Source of the DNA: Desulforamulus putei DSM 12395 | GTDB taxonomy: Bacteria; Bacillota; Desulfotomaculia; Desulfotomaculales; Desulfotomaculaceae | Assembly: GCF_900129195.1 (NCBI RefSeq) | Contig: NZ_FQUY01000007.1 | Span: forward strand, 1-64,000 | Length of the DNA: 64,000 nt | Direction: 5' to 3' | Shown: one piece after another, positions 8,502 to 58,533 of the stretch | Layout of the letters: each line of letters opens with the position of its first letter | Position numbering within the stretch: the first letter of the stretch is position 1 | Made by a program: the position numbers and the translations under genes | Notes under the pieces: generated by a model | The model's database searches: none | What the model saw: the letters and a program-made list of their open reading frames with translations, nothing else | Told to the model about the DNA's origin: nothing

Positions 8502-9695
8502 ATGAAGAAACAAGTGCCATTAATTGAACTACAAACACGTATGAACCGCTTCAGGGCCAAAATGGAAGCATCAAATCCGGATTGGGAGATTGCTGTTATT
8601 TTCAGTAAAATAAATCTTTATTATTTTACTGGGACCATGCAAGACGGCATGCTGCTTATTCCCCGGGATGATGAGGCAATATTTTGGGTGCGGCGTAGTT
8701 ACGAACGTGCATTGGATGAATCGTTATTTTCCCATATTAAACCAATGGACAGTTTCCGTGATGCTGCAGCATCCATTAGGAAGTTTCCTAGCGTAGCATA
8801 TATGGAGACCGAAGTGGTACCGCTGGCATTGTATCAGCGGTTTCAAAAGTATTTTCCTGTTACTGATGTTAGGTCGGTTGATGCACAGATAGCTGCAGTA
8901 AGAGCAATAAAAAGCCCATATGAACTGTCCCTAATGGAACAGTCTGGCAGAATTCATCAGCGGGTATTGGAAGACCGTGTACCGAAAATGCTCAAAGAGG
9001 GTATGAGTGAAGCAGAACTGGCCTCTCAATTGTTTTCTGTAATGATAGAGGAAGGATACCATGGGGTAGCCCGTTTTGGAATGTTTGATACCGAGATGGT
9101 ATTGGGGCACATCTGTTTTGGTGAAAGCTCTATTTACCCTACATATTTTAATGGACCTGGGGGTAATTATGGGATGAGCCCTGCGGTGCCATTATTAGGC
9201 AGTCGTGATCGCAAACTCAAAAAAGGAGATTTGGTCTTTGTTGACATAGGATGCGGGGTAGATGGTTATCACACTGATAAAACCATGACTTACATGTTTG
9301 GTGAATCCCTTCCACAGGAAGTAATTTCTGTGCATAACAAATGTGTTGACATACAGAACAAGATTGCAGAGATGCTGAAACCTGGTGTTACTCCATCACA
9401 TATATATAACACTATCATGAATAACCTTAGTACTGAGTTTCTAAAAAACTTTATGGGATTTGGAAATCGCAGGGTAAAATTTTTAGGTCATGGAATTGGT
9501 TTATTGATTGATGAATTGCCCGTAATTGCTGAAGGGTTTTCTGTACCATTGCAGGAAGGAATGGCTTTTGCTCTTGAACCCAAAAAAGGGATTGCCAACA
9601 TCGGAATGGTGGGGATTGAGAACACGTTTTTGGTTACCCCTGAAGGTGGGCGGTGTATTACTGGAGATAACCCTGGATTAATTCCAGTATATTAA
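8502..9695 (+). CDS. M24-family metallopeptidase (Xaa-Pro peptidase-like)
   Basis: A 397-residue creatinase/prolidase-type protein: N-terminal creatinase-like domain (1-140) and pita-bread M24 catalytic domain. The dinuclear metal ligands are visible: Asp in [18 protein letters not shown] (both Asp), His in FLGHGIGL, Glu in ALEPKKGI and Glu in [11 protein letters not shown]. Family members cleave Xaa-Pro bonds or related substrates; the substrate here cannot be predicted. It starts at ATG 8502 after gaggatataaac, 18 bases after the GGDEF gene, and its codon usage is more AT-rich than that gene. The ArsC-fold selenoprotein candidate follows after 27 bases, possibly in the same transcript. Confidence 0.88.
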
Positions 9696-9722
9696 TACAA
9701 ATAAAAAAACGGAGGGACTGTC

Positions 9723-10079
9723 ATGGAATGGATTTTATATGATTACCCCAGGTGAAGTACTGTTAAAAAGGCCAAGGATTGGCTAAAGCAAAGGAACATA
9801 CTTTTTAAAACCCGGCACATAATAGAGGAAAAACCTACTCTGGAGGAGATTCGGGATCTACATACCAAAAGCGGCCTGGAGATTAAAAGGTTCTTTAATA
9901 CCAGCGGGGTAAAATATAAAGAACTTGGTTTAAAGGATAAATTAAAAACCGCCAGTAACGAGGAACTCTATAATATTTTAGCCTCCGACGGAATGTTAGT
10001 AAAGCGACCCATATTAACCAATGGTGAGGTCGTGCTGGTGGGTTTTAAGGAGAAGGAATGGGAAGAGGCCCTGGGTTAA
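9723..10079 (+). CDS. ArsC/Spx-fold protein with in-frame UGA, probable selenoprotein
   Basis: From ATG 9723 (ribosome site acggaggga) the frame stays open for 118 codons to TAA 10077, apart from one TGA at 9753-9755, codon 11. The start MEWILYDYPR-(UGA)-STVKKAKDWL aligns with the ArsC/Spx/YffB-family opening YxYPKCSTCRKALxWL, so UGA replaces the catalytic first cysteine. The rest fits the family: EEKPTLEEIRDLHTKSGLEI, KYKELGLKDKL, LYNILASDGMLVKRPIL. The protein has no Cys at the partner position (Val in place of the second Cys). selA, selB and tRNA-Sec are all in this window, and a hairpin with a G-containing loop lies at the right distance after the UGA. The alternative is a one-codon nonsense pseudogene, but no other damage is present. 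Confidence 0.8.
9756..9790 (+). promoter_or_regulatory. Candidate bacterial SECIS hairpin
   Basis: Immediately 3' of the UGA at 9753-9755, gccaa (9771-9775) pairs with ttggc (9779-9783) around a small loop holding GG. The stem-loop lies about 16-28 nucleotides after the UGA and its loop guanines near 20-22, similar to the SelB-binding upper hairpin of known bacterial SECIS elements. It is within the coding frame, as in all bacterial cases. The lower stem is weak by eye. Confidence 0.5.
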
Positions 10080-10112: not shown

Positions 10113-10141
10113 AGCGGGAAGAGGGTTTGCCTCTTCCCGCT
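10113..10141 (+). terminator. Strong hairpin after the ArsC-like gene
   Basis: A 12-bp perfect stem (agcgggaagagg / cctcttcccgct) with a five-base loop lies 33 bases after the stop. No long T run follows (taaatc), so it may act as a weak terminator or 3' stabiliser. Confidence 0.6.
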
Positions 10142-10264: not shown

Positions 10265-10798
10265 ATGAATCTAAAAGGTACCAAAACCGAAGCGAATCTT
10301 AAGGCTGCTTTTGCAGGAGAGAGCCAAGCCCGCAATAAATACACCTACTGGGCCAGTGTAGCCAAAAAGGAAGGTTACGAGCAAATTGCCGCCATCTTCC
10401 TGGAAACTGCCGATAATGAAAAGGAACATGCCAAAAGACTTTTTAAGTTCCTGAACGGCATCAGCGATACCAAAACCAACCTGAAAGAGGCAGCCGCCGG
10501 TGAGAACTACGAATACACCAGCATGTATAAGGAATTTGAACAGGTGGCCCGGGAAGAAGGCTTTGCTGAAATCGCCGATGTATTCCGTGAAATTGCCGAA
10601 GTGGAAGAAGAACATGAAAAGCGTTACCTGGCACTATTAAAGAACATTGAAGAGGGTAAAGTCTTCAAGCGGGATGAGGAAGTAAAATGGAAGTGCCGCA
10701 ATTGTGGTTATGTCCACAAGGGCAAAGAGGCTCCTGAAGTCTGTCCGGCTTGTGCTCACCCTCAAGCCTATTACGAATTACTTTGTGAAAATTACTAG
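10265..10798 (+). CDS. rbr: Rubrerythrin
   Basis: A 177-residue protein with an N-terminal ferritin-like four-helix di-iron domain and a C-terminal rubredoxin-like domain. Iron ligands are visible in [30 protein letters not shown] and [13 protein letters not shown] (two ExxH motifs). The rubredoxin-like part has [10 protein letters not shown] and [13 protein letters not shown]. Rubrerythrins reduce hydrogen peroxide with NAD(P)H-derived electrons in anaerobes. Ribosome site aaggagg before ATG 10265. It is followed by a terminator and is likely monocistronic. A shorter, divergent rubrerythrin is encoded at 30111-30602. Confidence 0.96.
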
Positions 10799-12039: not shown

Positions 12040-12196
12040 TTGGCAAAGTGTGTTAAAATATACCGGAGCATCACCGGTGTGGCTTTCAGCACCGGATTTG
12101 TGGCAGGAGAGTCTGCCGCCGCTTTCGTAAAAGGAAACTCTTGACGAAAGAACTTCTTTCATGTAAATTACCATTAACAAAAAATTGTTGCGAGAA

Positions 12197-12299
12197 CTTA
12201 TCAAGAGTGGTGGAGGGACTGGCCCAATGAAGCCCGGCAACCGGCCTGTTTTGGCGGCGGTGCCAACTCCTGCAGGATAAAAGTTCCTGAGAGATAAGG
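12197..12299 (+). promoter_or_regulatory. SAM-I (S-box) riboswitch
   Basis: All S-box blocks are in order: cttatcaagagtggtgga, gggactggcccaatgaagccc, ggcaacc, ggtgccaactcctgcagg and cctgagagataagg, with P1 formed by cttatc and gataagg. It binds S-adenosylmethionine and here heads the methionine synthase operon, so high SAM should reduce transcription through the terminator that follows. Confidence 0.97.
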
Positions 12300-12325
12300 T
12301 GCGCTATGGAGTTATGCAACCACCT

Positions 12326-12368: not shown

Positions 12369-13061
12369 ATGCTGCTGCCTCAGATCCCCGTGGAGATACA
12401 ACATCAGCAGGTTCTTGGCTGCCTGGGGGCGACGGGGAAGCAAAGGATTGACCGGGACCTGCTGGACCAGGTAAATGAAATGATCCTCCTGGGCAAATCT
12501 TTGCTTCAGCCTGCCGCAGCCGTGGCCCAGGTGCGGGTTTCCCCGGCAGGGGATACCGTATATCTGAGCGGGGCGGCTTTCCACCTGCCGGATCTAAGTC
12601 AATGGCTGAAAGGTTGTAGCGTTGCCAGCGTGGCAGCGGTCACGGTTGGAGAAACTATTGAAAAGGAAGTTGAAAGGTTGTTTCACAGGGGCCTGGCAAC
12701 CCGTGCCGTGATCCTTGATGCCGTGGGAACCGCGGCGGCAGAGGGGGCCGCCAACCAGGTGGTCAAGCTTTTGGCCCGGCAGATGAGAATAAGGGGGCTC
12801 TTCCCCACGCCCAGGCTTGGTCCTGGTTACCGGGGCTTGAAGATGGATTATTTGCCGTTGTTCCTGGAAATGGCAGGGGGGGAACAAATTGCTGTTACCT
12901 GTAATAATTTTTTTCAAATGAACCCGGTAAAGTCCCTTTGTTTCATGGTGGGATGGAGTTCTGAACAGCAGAAGGAACAGGTTAAATGTGATTTTTGCCA
13001 TCAAGCAAATTGTCAATTTCGGGCCGTAAGGACAGAAGGAGAGAGTGGAGTTGTCTTTTAG
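12369..13061 (+). CDS. Methionine synthase reactivation-domain protein (stand-alone)
   Basis: About 230 residues, resembling the C-terminal SAM-binding activation domain of MetH as a separate protein. Visible features are AAVTVGETIEKEVERLF, AVILDAVGTAAAEGAANQVV and the conserved RLGPGYRGLKMDYLPLF (the RxSPGY-like SAM-binding loop). A cysteine-rich end (CDFCHQANCQFR) recalls the CxxC tail seen in clostridial versions. In the full enzyme this domain supplies SAM for reductive remethylation of oxidised cobalamin. ATG 12369 follows ggaggtattt. The gene overlaps the metH start by 17 bases. MetH itself lacks this domain, so the two proteins presumably act together. Confidence 0.88.
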   Translation: MLLPQIPVEIQHQQVLGCLGATGKQRIDRDLLDQVNEMILLGKSLLQPAAAVAQVRVSPAGDTVYLSGAAFHLPDLSQWLKGCSVASVAAVTVGETIEKEVERLFHRGLATRAVILDAVGTAAAEGAANQVVKLLARQMRIRGLFPTPRLGPGYRGLKMDYLPLFLEMAGGEQIAVTCNNFFQMNPVKSLCFMVGWSSEQQKEQVKCDFCHQANCQFRAVRTEGESGVVF

Positions 13062-39083: not shown

Positions 39084-40511
39084 ATGGAGCCTGTAATTGA
39101 CAAATCATTGCTCAGGGAACTGCCAAAAATTGATGAAGTCATGAAACATCATAAGATAACCCAGTTATTGGAAATTCACCCGAGATCGGTTGTGGTTGAC
39201 GGGGTCAGGGGAGCCGTAGACTTTATGAGAAAGGCCATTTTAAACGGGTATTTTACCGGTGACCCTGAAAAACTTTATGATATGGTAATTGAAAAGTCAT
39301 TGGTTCTGGTGGAATCAGAAACCAGGCCCAATTTGCGCAGGGTGATCAATGCCACCGGTGTGGTGCTGCATACCAACCTGGGACGGGCGCTGCTTTCCAG
39401 ATCGGCCCGCCATGCCGTTGATGCGGTGGCATCCGCCTATTGCAATTTGGAGATCAACCTGGAGACAGGAAAAAGGGGATCCCGGTACGAGCCGGTGGAA
39501 GATCTGCTCATACGTTTGACCGGCGCCGAGGCGGCGCTGGTGGTCAATAACAATGCATCAGCAGTCCTTTTAGCCCTGGGAACCCTGGCCAGGGGGAAAG
39601 AAGTGATTGTATCCCGGGGGCAGCTGGTGGAAATAGGAGGCTCCTTTAGAATTCCGGAGGTAATGGAGCAAAGCGGCGCCACCCTGGTGGAGGTGGGGGC
39701 CACCAATAAAACACACCCCAGGGACTATCGTAACGGTATTACCGAAAATACAGCGTTATTGCTTCATGTGCACACCAGCAACTACCGGATCATGGGCTTC
39801 ACCCGGGAGACGTCTGTTGCAGAGCTGGTGGAAATCGGCAGAGAGTCCGGGATCCCGGTGATGTCAGATTTGGGCAGTGGCTTTCTGGTGGACCTGGCCC
39901 AGTATGGTTTACCTGTGGAACCCAGTGTGCAGGAAACCGTAGCGGCCGGGGCGGATGTAGTGACTTTTTCCGGCGATAAACTTTTAGGCGGCCCCCAGGC
40001 GGGAATTATTGTAGGGAAGCGCCAATACATTGAAAAAATGAAGCAGAATCCTCTTACCCGGGCTGTCCGTATAAATAAGTTTACCGTGGCAGCCCTGGAA
40101 GCCACCCTCAGGGAATACCTGGACAAAGATCACGTTCTTAAGAAAATTCCTACCCTTAGAATGCTGACGGAATCCACCGACACAATATTAAAAAGGGCTG
40201 AGGAGTTGGCTGTAAAACTTAAATCCAGGCTAACCGCCGGAGCTGAGTTAAGGATTGTCCAGGGTTTCTCCCAGGTAGGCGGTGGATCCATGCCCACAGC
40301 TGAATTACCCACCTATTTGCTGTCCTGTGTGCCGGATAACATGTCGGTGGACGAGCTGGCGGTTCAATTGCGCAAGGCGGAACCTGCTGTGGTGGCACGG
40401 GTGCAGGACGGCCGGTATCAGGTAGATTTACGGACGGTTCAACCGGATGAGGTGGACCTGCTGGCGAAAGTGATGGCCGGTGTATTAAATTCCGGGGGGG
40501 TGTCCCGGTGA
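39084..40511 (+). CDS. selA: L-seryl-tRNA(Sec) selenium transferase
   Basis: A 475-residue PLP enzyme of fold type I. It converts Ser-tRNA-Sec to Sec-tRNA-Sec using selenophosphate. Hallmarks: RPNLRRVINATGVVLHTNLG, GKRGSRYEPVEDLL, VVNNNASAVLLAL, and the PLP-binding lysine in VVTFSGDKLLGGPQAGIIVG. ATG 39084 is chosen because gcggaggaac lies just before it. It overlaps selB by a few bases. selD, the selenophosphate synthase, is not in the window. Confidence 0.97.
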   Translation: MEPVIDKSLLRELPKIDEVMKHHKITQLLEIHPRSVVVDGVRGAVDFMRKAILNGYFTGDPEKLYDMVIEKSLVLVESETRPNLRRVINATGVVLHTNLGRALLSRSARHAVDAVASAYCNLEINLETGKRGSRYEPVEDLLIRLTGAEAALVVNNNASAVLLALGTLARGKEVIVSRGQLVEIGGSFRIPEVMEQSGATLVEVGATNKTHPRDYRNGITENTALLLHVHTSNYRIMGFTRETSVAELVEIGRESGIPVMSDLGSGFLVDLAQYGLPVEPSVQETVAAGADVVTFSGDKLLGGPQAGIIVGKRQYIEKMKQNPLTRAVRINKFTVAALEATLREYLDKDHVLKKIPTLRMLTESTDTILKRAEELAVKLKSRLTAGAELRIVQGFSQVGGGSMPTAELPTYLLSCVPDNMSVDELAVQLRKAEPAVVARVQDGRYQVDLRTVQPDEVDLLAKVMAGVLNSGGVSR

Positions 40512-42421
40512 TGAAACACATTGTTATCGGCACCGCTGGGCACGTGGACCATGGTAAAACGCTGCTGATCAAGACCTTAACCGGCACCGATACGGACAGG
40601 TTAAAGGAAGAGAAAGAAAGGGGCATTTCCATTGAACTGGGCTTTGCGCAGCTTAAGCTGCCCAGCGGTAAGCAGGCAGGCATCGTAGATGTGCCCGGGC
40701 ATGAACGTTTTATTAAAAACATGCTGGCCGGGGTGGGGGGCATCGACCTGGTTTTACTGGTCATTGCCGCCGATGAGGGAGTGATGCCCCAGACCAGGGA
40801 ACATATGGACATTATCCAATTACTCCAGGTAAAGAAGGGGATTGTGGTCTTAACCAAGGTGGACCTGGTGGATGAGGAATGGTTGGGCCTGGTCACGGAA
40901 GAAGTTAAGGAATTTTTAAAGGGTACCGTCCTCAGCCAGGCCCCGGTTGTTCCGGTATCCTCCGTTACGGGGCAAGGAATTCCCCGGTTGTTGCAGTTCA
41001 TTGATAAACTTGTAGATGATACCGAAGAGAGAGTCAATACCGGAAAATTAAGATTGCCTGTGGACAGGGTGTTTTCTGTCACCGGTTTTGGCACGGTGGT
41101 TACCGGAACCCTCCTGGCCGGCCGCATTTCTGTGGGGGATACCGTGCAGATCATGCCCCAGGGTCTGGTGTCCCGGGTACGCTCCGTTCAGGTGCACGGC
41201 CAAAAGGTGGAGCAGGCCCGGGCAGGGCAGCGTACTGCGGTTAATTTAACGGGGGTGGAAGTGGAGCAAGTAAAAAGGGGCAGTGTCATTGTTTCCCCCG
41301 GTAGTGTAAAGCCTTCACACCGTATGGATGTGCGGTTACTGCTGCTGGAGAGCGCCCCCAAAGGGCTGAAAAACAGGGCAAGGGTGAGGCTGTATTTGGG
41401 CACCGATGAGATCCTGGGCAGGGTCAGATTGCTGGACAGGGATGAACTGGAGCCGGGACAGGAAGTCTATGCTCAGTTGGAGCTGGAGGAACAGGCGGTT
41501 GCCGGTAAGGGAGACCGGTTTGTGATTCGTTCCTATTCCCCCATGCGAACCATTGGGGGAGGGGCTGTCATTGATGCCAATGCCCCCAAACACAAGCGCT
41601 TCCGGCCCGAGGTGCTGGAGGCGCTGGCAACCAAGGAAATGGGAACGCCGGAAGAATTAATTGACCAGTTCCTGGCGGGCAAGCAGGGGTTATTTACCAG
41701 TGAGGAATTGGTGACGGCCACCGGGCTGCCTGCTCCGGATGTTGAAGCCGGTTTGCAAAAACTGGCATCGGAGGAGCAAATTAAAGTAATCCCGGCAGAT
41801 CATAAGGATCTGGTTGTATCCCTGCAGGTGTATCGTACCTGGGGCCGGGAGATCCGGAGCATGGTGGAAAATTACCACCGGGAATATCCCCTGAGAGAGG
41901 GGGTTCCCAAGGAGGAATTGCGCTCCAGGAAGTTTTCTTTTACGAATAATAAAAGCTTCCAGTATCTTTTACAGGCTTTAGAGGTCGACGGCATGATTAA
42001 AATTTACGAGAAGACCCTGGCCAGCCCCGATTTTACCGGAGAATTATCCGCAGGGCATAAAAGGCTGATTGAGGCAATGGTAAGGGCCATCCACGAAGGC
42101 CATTTTCAACCCCCTTCCTGGAGTGAAATTGTGAAAAGCCACAAATTAAAGGAACACGAAGCCCAGGAATACCTGCAGTATCTGTTGCGGACAGGCAAAT
42201 TGGTAAAACTGGGCGATGAGGAGCTTTATTATTCTGCTGAACGGTACCGGCAGGCCAGGCAAATGATTGTTGATTTTCTGAAGGAAAATAAAGAAATCTC
42301 AGTGGCCCAAACCAGAGATTTGCTCAAAACGTCCAGAAAATTTACCCTGCCATTGCTGGAGTCCTTGGACCGTGAAAGGGTAACTCGCCGGGTAGGAGAT
42401 AACCGTGTTTTAATCCAATAA
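40511..42421 (+). CDS. selB: Selenocysteine-specific elongation factor
   Basis: A 636-residue GTPase: G domain (GTAGHVDHGKTLLIKTLTGTD truncated here to GHVDHGKT, DVPGHERFIKNML, TKVDLVD), two beta-barrel domains, and C-terminal winged helices (FTNNKSFQYLLQALEVDGMI, VAQTRDLLKTSRKFTLPLLE) that bind the SECIS hairpin. It delivers Sec-tRNA-Sec to UGA codons. ATG 40511 (or GTG 40508) overlaps the selA stop. Together with the tRNA-Sec at 58436 it supports the selenoprotein reading at 9723. Confidence 0.97.
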   Translation: MKHIVIGTAGHVDHGKTLLIKTLTGTDTDRLKEEKERGISIELGFAQLKLPSGKQAGIVDVPGHERFIKNMLAGVGGIDLVLLVIAADEGVMPQTREHMDIIQLLQVKKGIVVLTKVDLVDEEWLGLVTEEVKEFLKGTVLSQAPVVPVSSVTGQGIPRLLQFIDKLVDDTEERVNTGKLRLPVDRVFSVTGFGTVVTGTLLAGRISVGDTVQIMPQGLVSRVRSVQVHGQKVEQARAGQRTAVNLTGVEVEQVKRGSVIVSPGSVKPSHRMDVRLLLLESAPKGLKNRARVRLYLGTDEILGRVRLLDRDELEPGQEVYAQLELEEQAVAGKGDRFVIRSYSPMRTIGGGAVIDANAPKHKRFRPEVLEALATKEMGTPEELIDQFLAGKQGLFTSEELVTATGLPAPDVEAGLQKLASEEQIKVIPADHKDLVVSLQVYRTWGREIRSMVENYHREYPLREGVPKEELRSRKFSFTNNKSFQYLLQALEVDGMIKIYEKTLASPDFTGELSAGHKRLIEAMVRAIHEGHFQPPSWSEIVKSHKLKEHEAQEYLQYLLRTGKLVKLGDEELYYSAERYRQARQMIVDFLKENKEISVAQTRDLLKTSRKFTLPLLESLDRERVTRRVGDNRVLIQ

Positions 42422-45248: not shown

Positions 45249-45270
45249 GATTTTGGACAAGTGAATCAAA

Positions 45271-45335
45271 TCCGTATATGCTTGGGAATTGGCCCAAGTG
45301 TTTCTACCGGGCAACCGTAATTGCCTGACTACGGA
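45271..45335 (+). promoter_or_regulatory. Guanine-class purine riboswitch aptamer
   Basis: P1 is tccgta (45271-45276) with tacgga (45330-45335). P2 is cttggg/cccaag around aattgg, J2/3 is gtttctacc, and P3 is cgggca/tgcctg around accgtaat. The J3/1 segment gactac has C at the ligand-pairing position, as in guanine/hypoxanthine aptamers (adenine aptamers have U). It is directly followed by a second aptamer. Confidence 0.9.
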
Positions 45336-45430
45336 GGGAAAGTGTACCTAGGGTTCCACAACCTTTGGGTTGGTTTGGTCCAAGCGGTACAGGCGTTTTA
45401 CGCTACACCTATAGGGATAAAAGCCCAGGA
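45336..45430 (+). promoter_or_regulatory. ykkC-family subtype 2 (PRPP-type) riboswitch aptamer
   Basis: Blocks gtgtacctagggttcca, ggtttggtccaagcggtaca and acctatagggataaaagccc match the conserved parts of the ykkC subtype 2 aptamers (ppGpp or PRPP). Guanine aptamers joined to PRPP aptamers are a known tandem arrangement controlling purine genes, so PRPP is favoured. Its 3' end overlaps the terminator stem (aaaagcccagga), giving the usual ligand-dependent antitermination. Confidence 0.75.
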
Positions 45431-45481
45431 GGTAGGTTTCACTCTGCTGAGAATGAAACCTATCTGTCCTGGGCTTTTTTG
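45422..45481 (+). terminator. Expression-platform terminator of the tandem riboswitch
   Basis: agcccagga (45422-45430) pairs with tcctgggct (45467-45475), with an inner stem ggtaggtttca / tgaaacctatc, and the run tttttt follows. Confidence 0.9.
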
Positions 45482-58435: not shown

Positions 58436-58533
58436 TGGCGGGAGTGTGTGGGAATCGAACCCACCAGAGACAGGAACGCTGCCTCACGACTGGTTTTGAA
58501 GACCAGGAGCACCACCAGGCACCATCCACTCCC
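58436..58533 (-). tRNA. selC: tRNA-Sec (UCA)
   Basis: On the minus strand the gene runs gggagtgg at the 5' end (58533) to ccactccc-type pairing and encoded CCA at 58436-58438. The anticodon arm ctggtcttcaaaaccag has TCA. A long variable arm (gtgaggcagcgttcctgtctctg region), extended D stem and 98-base length are typical of selenocysteine tRNA. T arm: gtgggttcgattcccac. It decodes the UGA proposed at 9753. Confidence 0.96.

Follow-up and report, generated by a model that had tools for sequence, protein, structure and literature searches.

Reading frame and in-frame UGA codon

Near the start of the window, by which we mean the whole 64,000-nucleotide stretch of Desulforamulus putei DSM 12395 DNA that was analysed, lies a reading frame broken by a TGA, and the question is whether it is a selenoprotein gene and, if so, what its product would do. 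Translation of positions 9723–10079 confirmed a single 118-codon frame interrupted only at codon 11, as an earlier preliminary description of the locus had proposed. The conceptual product, MEWILYDYPRUSTVKKAKDWLK...EEALG, has one internal TGA and ends at a TAA. With this TGA read as selenocysteine (Sec), the protein has zero Cys residues and a UxxV active site, codon 14 being GTT and thus Val, the residue that had been said to replace the resolving Cys. The features of the gene are as follows.

9711..9716, + strand: ribosome-binding site GGAGGG, 5' of ATG 9723 (from the sequence; almost every clade member has an SD-like sequence ahead of its start codon)
9723..10079, + strand: predicted selenoprotein gene, Spx/YusI-type (ArsC-like), 118 codons, lone Sec11, no Cys (frame translation, profile matches, homologues, AlphaFold model)
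9753..9755, + strand: in-frame UGA, predicted Sec11, at the catalytic-Cys position (TGA in 19/19 clade members; Cys in other YusI-type relatives)
9762..9764, + strand: Val14 (GTT), where the second Cys of CxxC relatives stands (homologue comparison)

The listing of + strand open reading frames of at least 90 aa calls nothing at 9723–10079, and a gene caller would therefore miss the gene, as had been anticipated.

Selenocysteine machinery

The claim that the window itself encodes selA, selB and tRNA-Sec proved correct, and all three were located.

39084..40511, + strand: selA, selenocysteine synthase (Pfam SelA, 1e-162)
40511..42421, + strand: selB, Sec-specific elongation factor (TIGR00475, 378 bits; SelB winged-helix domains)
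58436..58533, - strand: tRNA-Sec (ARAGORN; RF01852, 70.9 bits)

The selD gene is on another contig and itself carries an in-frame TGA, so that the full set of SelA, SelB, SelD and tRNA-Sec is found in the genome. The presence or absence of SelB is of no use as a contrast within the class, as a SelB match occurs in 113/113 class genomes, 109 of them over the cut-off.

Homologues and evolution of the active site

Searching 84,980 species genomes yielded 80 loci. In four of them, from Desulfotomaculaceae, Desulfallaceae and one other member of the Clostridia, codon 11 is TGA and codon 14 encodes Val; the remaining 76 are CxxC. The 113 genomes of the window's class contain 12 full-length copies with TGA and Val, the window's included; the other 11 are 67–76% identical to it, and each has exactly one in-frame stop, which is a TGA at the same codon. 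Random stops in relatives, which had been named in advance as evidence that would count against a selenoprotein, were looked for, and the intact copies all share the one TGA. A sample of the phylum (398 genomes) added UxxV, UxxA and UxxS forms and many UxxC forms, and TGA forms alone were returned from the small order around genome G339. The non-redundant totals, all inspected, are 129 CxxC, 27 UxxC, 17 UxxV, 5 UxxA, 2 UxxS, 1 CxxV and 1 CxxT. The second Cys is thus missing from 24/51 Sec forms as against 2/131 Cys forms, and 23 of the 24 are entirely free of Cys.

In a maximum-likelihood tree computed with both active-site columns masked, 19 Cys-free Sec forms, including that of the window, form one clade with support of 93/95. 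Its 19 members come from Desulfotomaculaceae and other Bacillota; every one of them has a TGA as codon 11, V, A or S at position 14 and zero Cys, which bears out the proposal that the Sec acts without a resolving Cys. The alignment has the predicted Sec/Cys column at codon 11, with TGA in the clade and Cys in the CxxC relatives. Across the UGA, dN is 0.16–0.6 and dS is above 1.7 or saturated, indicating purifying selection on both sides of the codon.

SECIS-like hairpin

The preliminary description had placed a G-loop hairpin 16–28 bases past the TGA; the hairpin is there, and its measured position differs slightly, at 15–29 nt after the UGA.

9770..9784, + strand: SECIS-like hairpin GGCCAA-GGA-TTGGCT, loop G at nt 24 counting the U of UGA as 1 (folding, family comparison)

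Taken alone this hairpin is unexceptional (z = -1.0 in single-sequence folding; p = 0.39 in a codon-preserving shuffle), and its significance comes only from comparison across the family. Stems of 6–8 bp occur in almost all Sec forms of the clade and of its closest Sec relatives; in Cys relatives whose genes specify the same K-A-K-x-W-L peptide, the mean stem length is 3 bp (Sec versus Cys, Mann-Whitney p 3e-19). In codon-preserving shuffles the Sec forms lie above their own expectation and the Cys forms below it, with single genes mostly non-significant. In 30/30 Sec sequences the first base of the loop is a G, at nt 24; when these 30 are aligned, 95% of stem cells are paired, and compensatory changes, affecting both sides, are seen at pairs 17–33 and 23–27.

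Constraint on wobble bases, which is not present in the Cys relatives, is the clearest RNA-level evidence. At Lys18, AAG is used by 24/24 Sec forms versus 30/67 Cys forms (p 3e-7), and AAG makes up 141/374 of the other Lys codons in Sec genes (p 2e-10 against Lys18), p-values that are optimistic in that related sequences are counted as independent; in the same way, Ala17 is GCC in 22/27 Sec forms versus 15/95 Cys forms.

A distant, mostly UxxC group of Spx/ArsC-like Sec proteins, widespread in Bacillota (L104–L109, L169, L172, L174, L175, L182, L184, L187 and L246), has another hairpin, CGAAAGC-GTG-GCTTTCG, with its loop at nt 27, shifted by one codon over the same peptide.

These data bear on the reading of the locus as a pseudogene or a gene with an ordinary stop, the TGA being a nonsense mutation or a sequencing error. 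Truncated or disrupted copies do occur in three relatives (L131 in genome G006, L102 in G026 and L103 in G090); L131 has lost its 5' half, Sec codon included, and what is left of it lies about 1.9 kb from the M24 peptidase gene, with other sequence in between. TGA-bearing genes with a weak or missing hairpin also occur inside a CxxC clade (L099, L139/L161, L160 and L245); in genome G460, which carries L139, there are two TGA-bearing copies at a distance of about 2.7 kb. These genes either took up Sec very recently or are broken, and L099, L139, L160 and L245 may be cases of the latter kind. For the window gene the reading is nonetheless contradicted by the conservation of the UGA, one TGA and no other being shared by 19 distinct genes from several families, as well as by the purifying selection on both of its sides, the wobble-level constraint on the hairpin and the presence of the Sec machinery. 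We have rejected it as extremely improbable. On this comparative evidence Sec is almost certainly inserted at UGA codon 11.

Fold and family assignment

The window protein is recognised by Pfam ArsC (2.4e-18) and scores 97.3 bits on TIGR01617 (Spx/MgsR-related), over the cut-off of 75.05. It fails TIGR00014 arsC (44 bits versus a cut-off of 106) and the Sec-specific model NF041106 (28 of 85 bits), and with 51 of 123 bits it lies far under the cut-off of Spx-specific models. The AlphaFold model (pLDDT 94.6) has 3gkx as its best structural match, with a Z-score of 21.8, 1.0 Å and 50% identity. Other matches are SACOL0876 (Z 17.9), Spx 1z3e (Z 17.7, 24% identity), E. coli ArsC 1i9d (Z 15.1) and glutaredoxin/NrdH (Z about 9).

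The glutaredoxin-dependent arsenate reductase ArsC of E. coli has the fold, the position of the nucleophile and a counterpart of its Arg94 in common with the window protein, but in pairwise alignment its Arg60 is replaced by Asn59 and its Arg107 has no counterpart. Asn59 and Lys94 of the window protein correspond to the Asn60/Lys93 pair (E. coli ArsC numbering) that marks the YffB/YusI paralogues (PMC5593903). Because Arg60 and Arg107 are missing and the YffB/YusI Asn and Lys are present, we assign the protein by sequence to the YusI-type branch of Spx-like proteins and not to the arsenate reductases. The description of it as an ArsC/Spx-fold protein with Sec at the catalytic position was upheld by the homologues, with the branch corrected from ArsC to YusI-type. 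A selenoprotein that reduces arsenate, which the Pfam match would suggest, is accordingly a very improbable reading, and it was rejected on the sub-cut-off arsC score, the two missing arginines and the lack of any ars gene beside the selenoprotein gene; the YffB/YusI pair counts against it as well.

Spx and MgsR resemble the window protein in fold (1z3e) and in the RPI motif. The window protein differs from them in having UxxV in place of the CxxC switch and in lacking the Spx C-terminal tail (118 versus 131 aa). A Gly aligns with Spx Gly52, the contact to the RNA polymerase alpha-CTD, only across gaps, and YusI-type proteins have been reported to be without Gly52 (PMC11481553).

Gene neighbourhood

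The gene lies between a peptidase-like gene and a gene for peroxide and O2 defence.

8502..9695, + strand: M24 peptidase/creatinase-like gene, 27 bp upstream of the selenoprotein gene (ORF list, domain match)
10265..10798, + strand: rubrerythrin (peroxide/O2 defence), directly downstream of the selenoprotein gene (domain match)

Rubrerythrin is immediately downstream in all six members of the window's genus with an intact copy, and hemerythrin is upstream at three of these six loci. In G006, where the selenoprotein gene is a remnant, the order M24 peptidase, remnant, rubrerythrin, ychF is kept. Two Desulfallaceae have an FprA flavodiiron gene downstream. None of rubrerythrin, FprA flavodiiron or hemerythrin was found within 3 kb in the 76 Cys loci, a comparison in which the neighbour evidence comes mostly from one genus and one family and so amounts to two or three independent cases.

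The interval that separates the selenoprotein gene from the rubrerythrin gene contains, at 10113–10141, a strong 12-bp inverted repeat with a T-run on the - strand side only. In the order f69, UxxA/UxxS genes (L162, L166 and L168) directly follow the gene for a 2-oxoacid:ferredoxin oxidoreductase beta-subunit. Elsewhere in the window, a SAM riboswitch at 12195–12300 precedes a gene at 12306 and a methionine-synthase-like gene at 13045. At 45252–45433 a purine riboswitch aptamer is directly followed by a ykkC-type aptamer (Guanidine-I model, 64.4 versus 63 bits, barely over threshold), upstream of genes for a BMP-type lipoprotein and an ABC transporter (45984 on); we take this pair to be possibly a tandem riboswitch for guanine and a ykkC-subtype ligand such as PRPP.

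Comparison with OseR

The closest relatives that have been studied are YusI-type proteins, among them OseR (CD1777) of Clostridioides difficile, which has a CxxV active site and represses reverse-rubrerythrin (revrbr) and flavodiiron (fdp) genes until O2 arrives, an effect that may be indirect (PMC11481553). The pattern of rubrerythrin adjacency had been established before this comparison was made. The two proteins share the fold and the family TIGR01617, both lack the second Cys and both are linked to rubrerythrin and flavodiiron genes; they differ in that OseR has Cys where the window protein has Sec.

A search by DNA pattern for CxxV relatives in 391 Clostridia genomes returned unrelated matches only. 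When these genomes were searched at the protein level, one CxxV relative came up, in genome G783 (4.26 Mb); it is 52% identical to the window protein and is possibly OseR itself. In the tree it branches near Bacillales YusI proteins and outside the UxxV clade, so that it seems to have lost the second Cys independently of that clade. A single clade of the Cys-free UxxV forms and the CxxV protein is unsupported by the tree and not firmly rejected (AU p 0.07).

Proposed mechanism and function

We propose that SelB reads UGA codon 11 as Sec owing to the hairpin 15–29 nt downstream. Sec would have taken the place of the catalytic Cys, with loss of the second active-site Cys to V, A or S, which would leave Sec as the sole chalcogen nucleophile. 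With no internal partner, Sec could therefore form no internal bond, and we infer that its oxidised state is an intermolecular selenenyl-sulfide, with the Se-S bond made to a partner protein or a low-molecular thiol and reduced from outside. The protein would most likely have a sensing role like that reported for the CxxV protein OseR, tied to rubrerythrin/flavodiiron defence.

Taken as a whole, a lone-Sec selenoprotein that is most likely an O2/peroxide-linked redox sensor is the best explanation, and one we consider probable. For the sensor or regulator role by itself, the chances appear about even. Its most specific form is put forward tentatively: strict anaerobes would have a sensor of the Spx family, similar to OseR, that perceives O2 or peroxide with one Sec and no partner Cys, controls rubrerythrin/flavodiiron genes and is a transcriptional switch, not an enzyme.

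The preliminary description had spoken of a monothiol redox enzyme, which survives as one of two live readings. As a lone-Sec oxidoreductase, glutaredoxin-like or a 1-Cys-type thiol peroxidase, the protein would form a mixed selenosulfide, be recycled by thioredoxin or a low-molecular thiol and serve peroxide defence beside rubrerythrin instead of regulating it. Sec usually serves catalysis, the fold is common to glutaredoxin/NrdH and the ArsC-family reductases, Arg95-Pro96 is conserved next to the active site, and the neighbouring genes encode O2-defence enzymes, all of which makes this reading a serious one at somewhat less than even chances. Against it, OseR, the only YusI-type member with published genetics and a CxxV Cys relative of the window protein, behaves as a regulator. 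We regard the sensor as the most likely role, with the oxidoreductase nearly as likely.

Relation to known selenoproteins

Sec in ArsC-like proteins of the UxxC and UxxS types is already known. Marine metagenomes contain GOS ArsC 1 (UxxS) and ArsC 2 (cd03032, UxxC) (PMC2398784), and further Sec forms belong to NF041106 (UxxC) and TIGR00014 (UxxS). All of these are of the same superfamily and have Sec at the position of the catalytic Cys like the window protein, but their fourth position is Cys or Ser where the window protein has Val. A 2026 inventory of 119 families of prokaryotic selenoproteins has no entry for an ArsC-like protein of the UxxV or UxxA type, nor for the Cys-free Uxx(V/A/S) form (PMC13188914); a 2006 list of selenoproteins for Desulfotomaculum reducens does not contain this protein (PMC1794560). 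A literature search for Sec-containing transcription regulators found nothing relevant.

The finding adds a clade of selenoproteins that lack any cysteine, whose genes are skipped by standard gene calling and whose Sec must react with an external partner. Such Cys-free proteins are clean systems for testing what Sec alone can do and, if the parallel with OseR holds, the use of selenium in oxygen sensing for the control of transcription would become testable.
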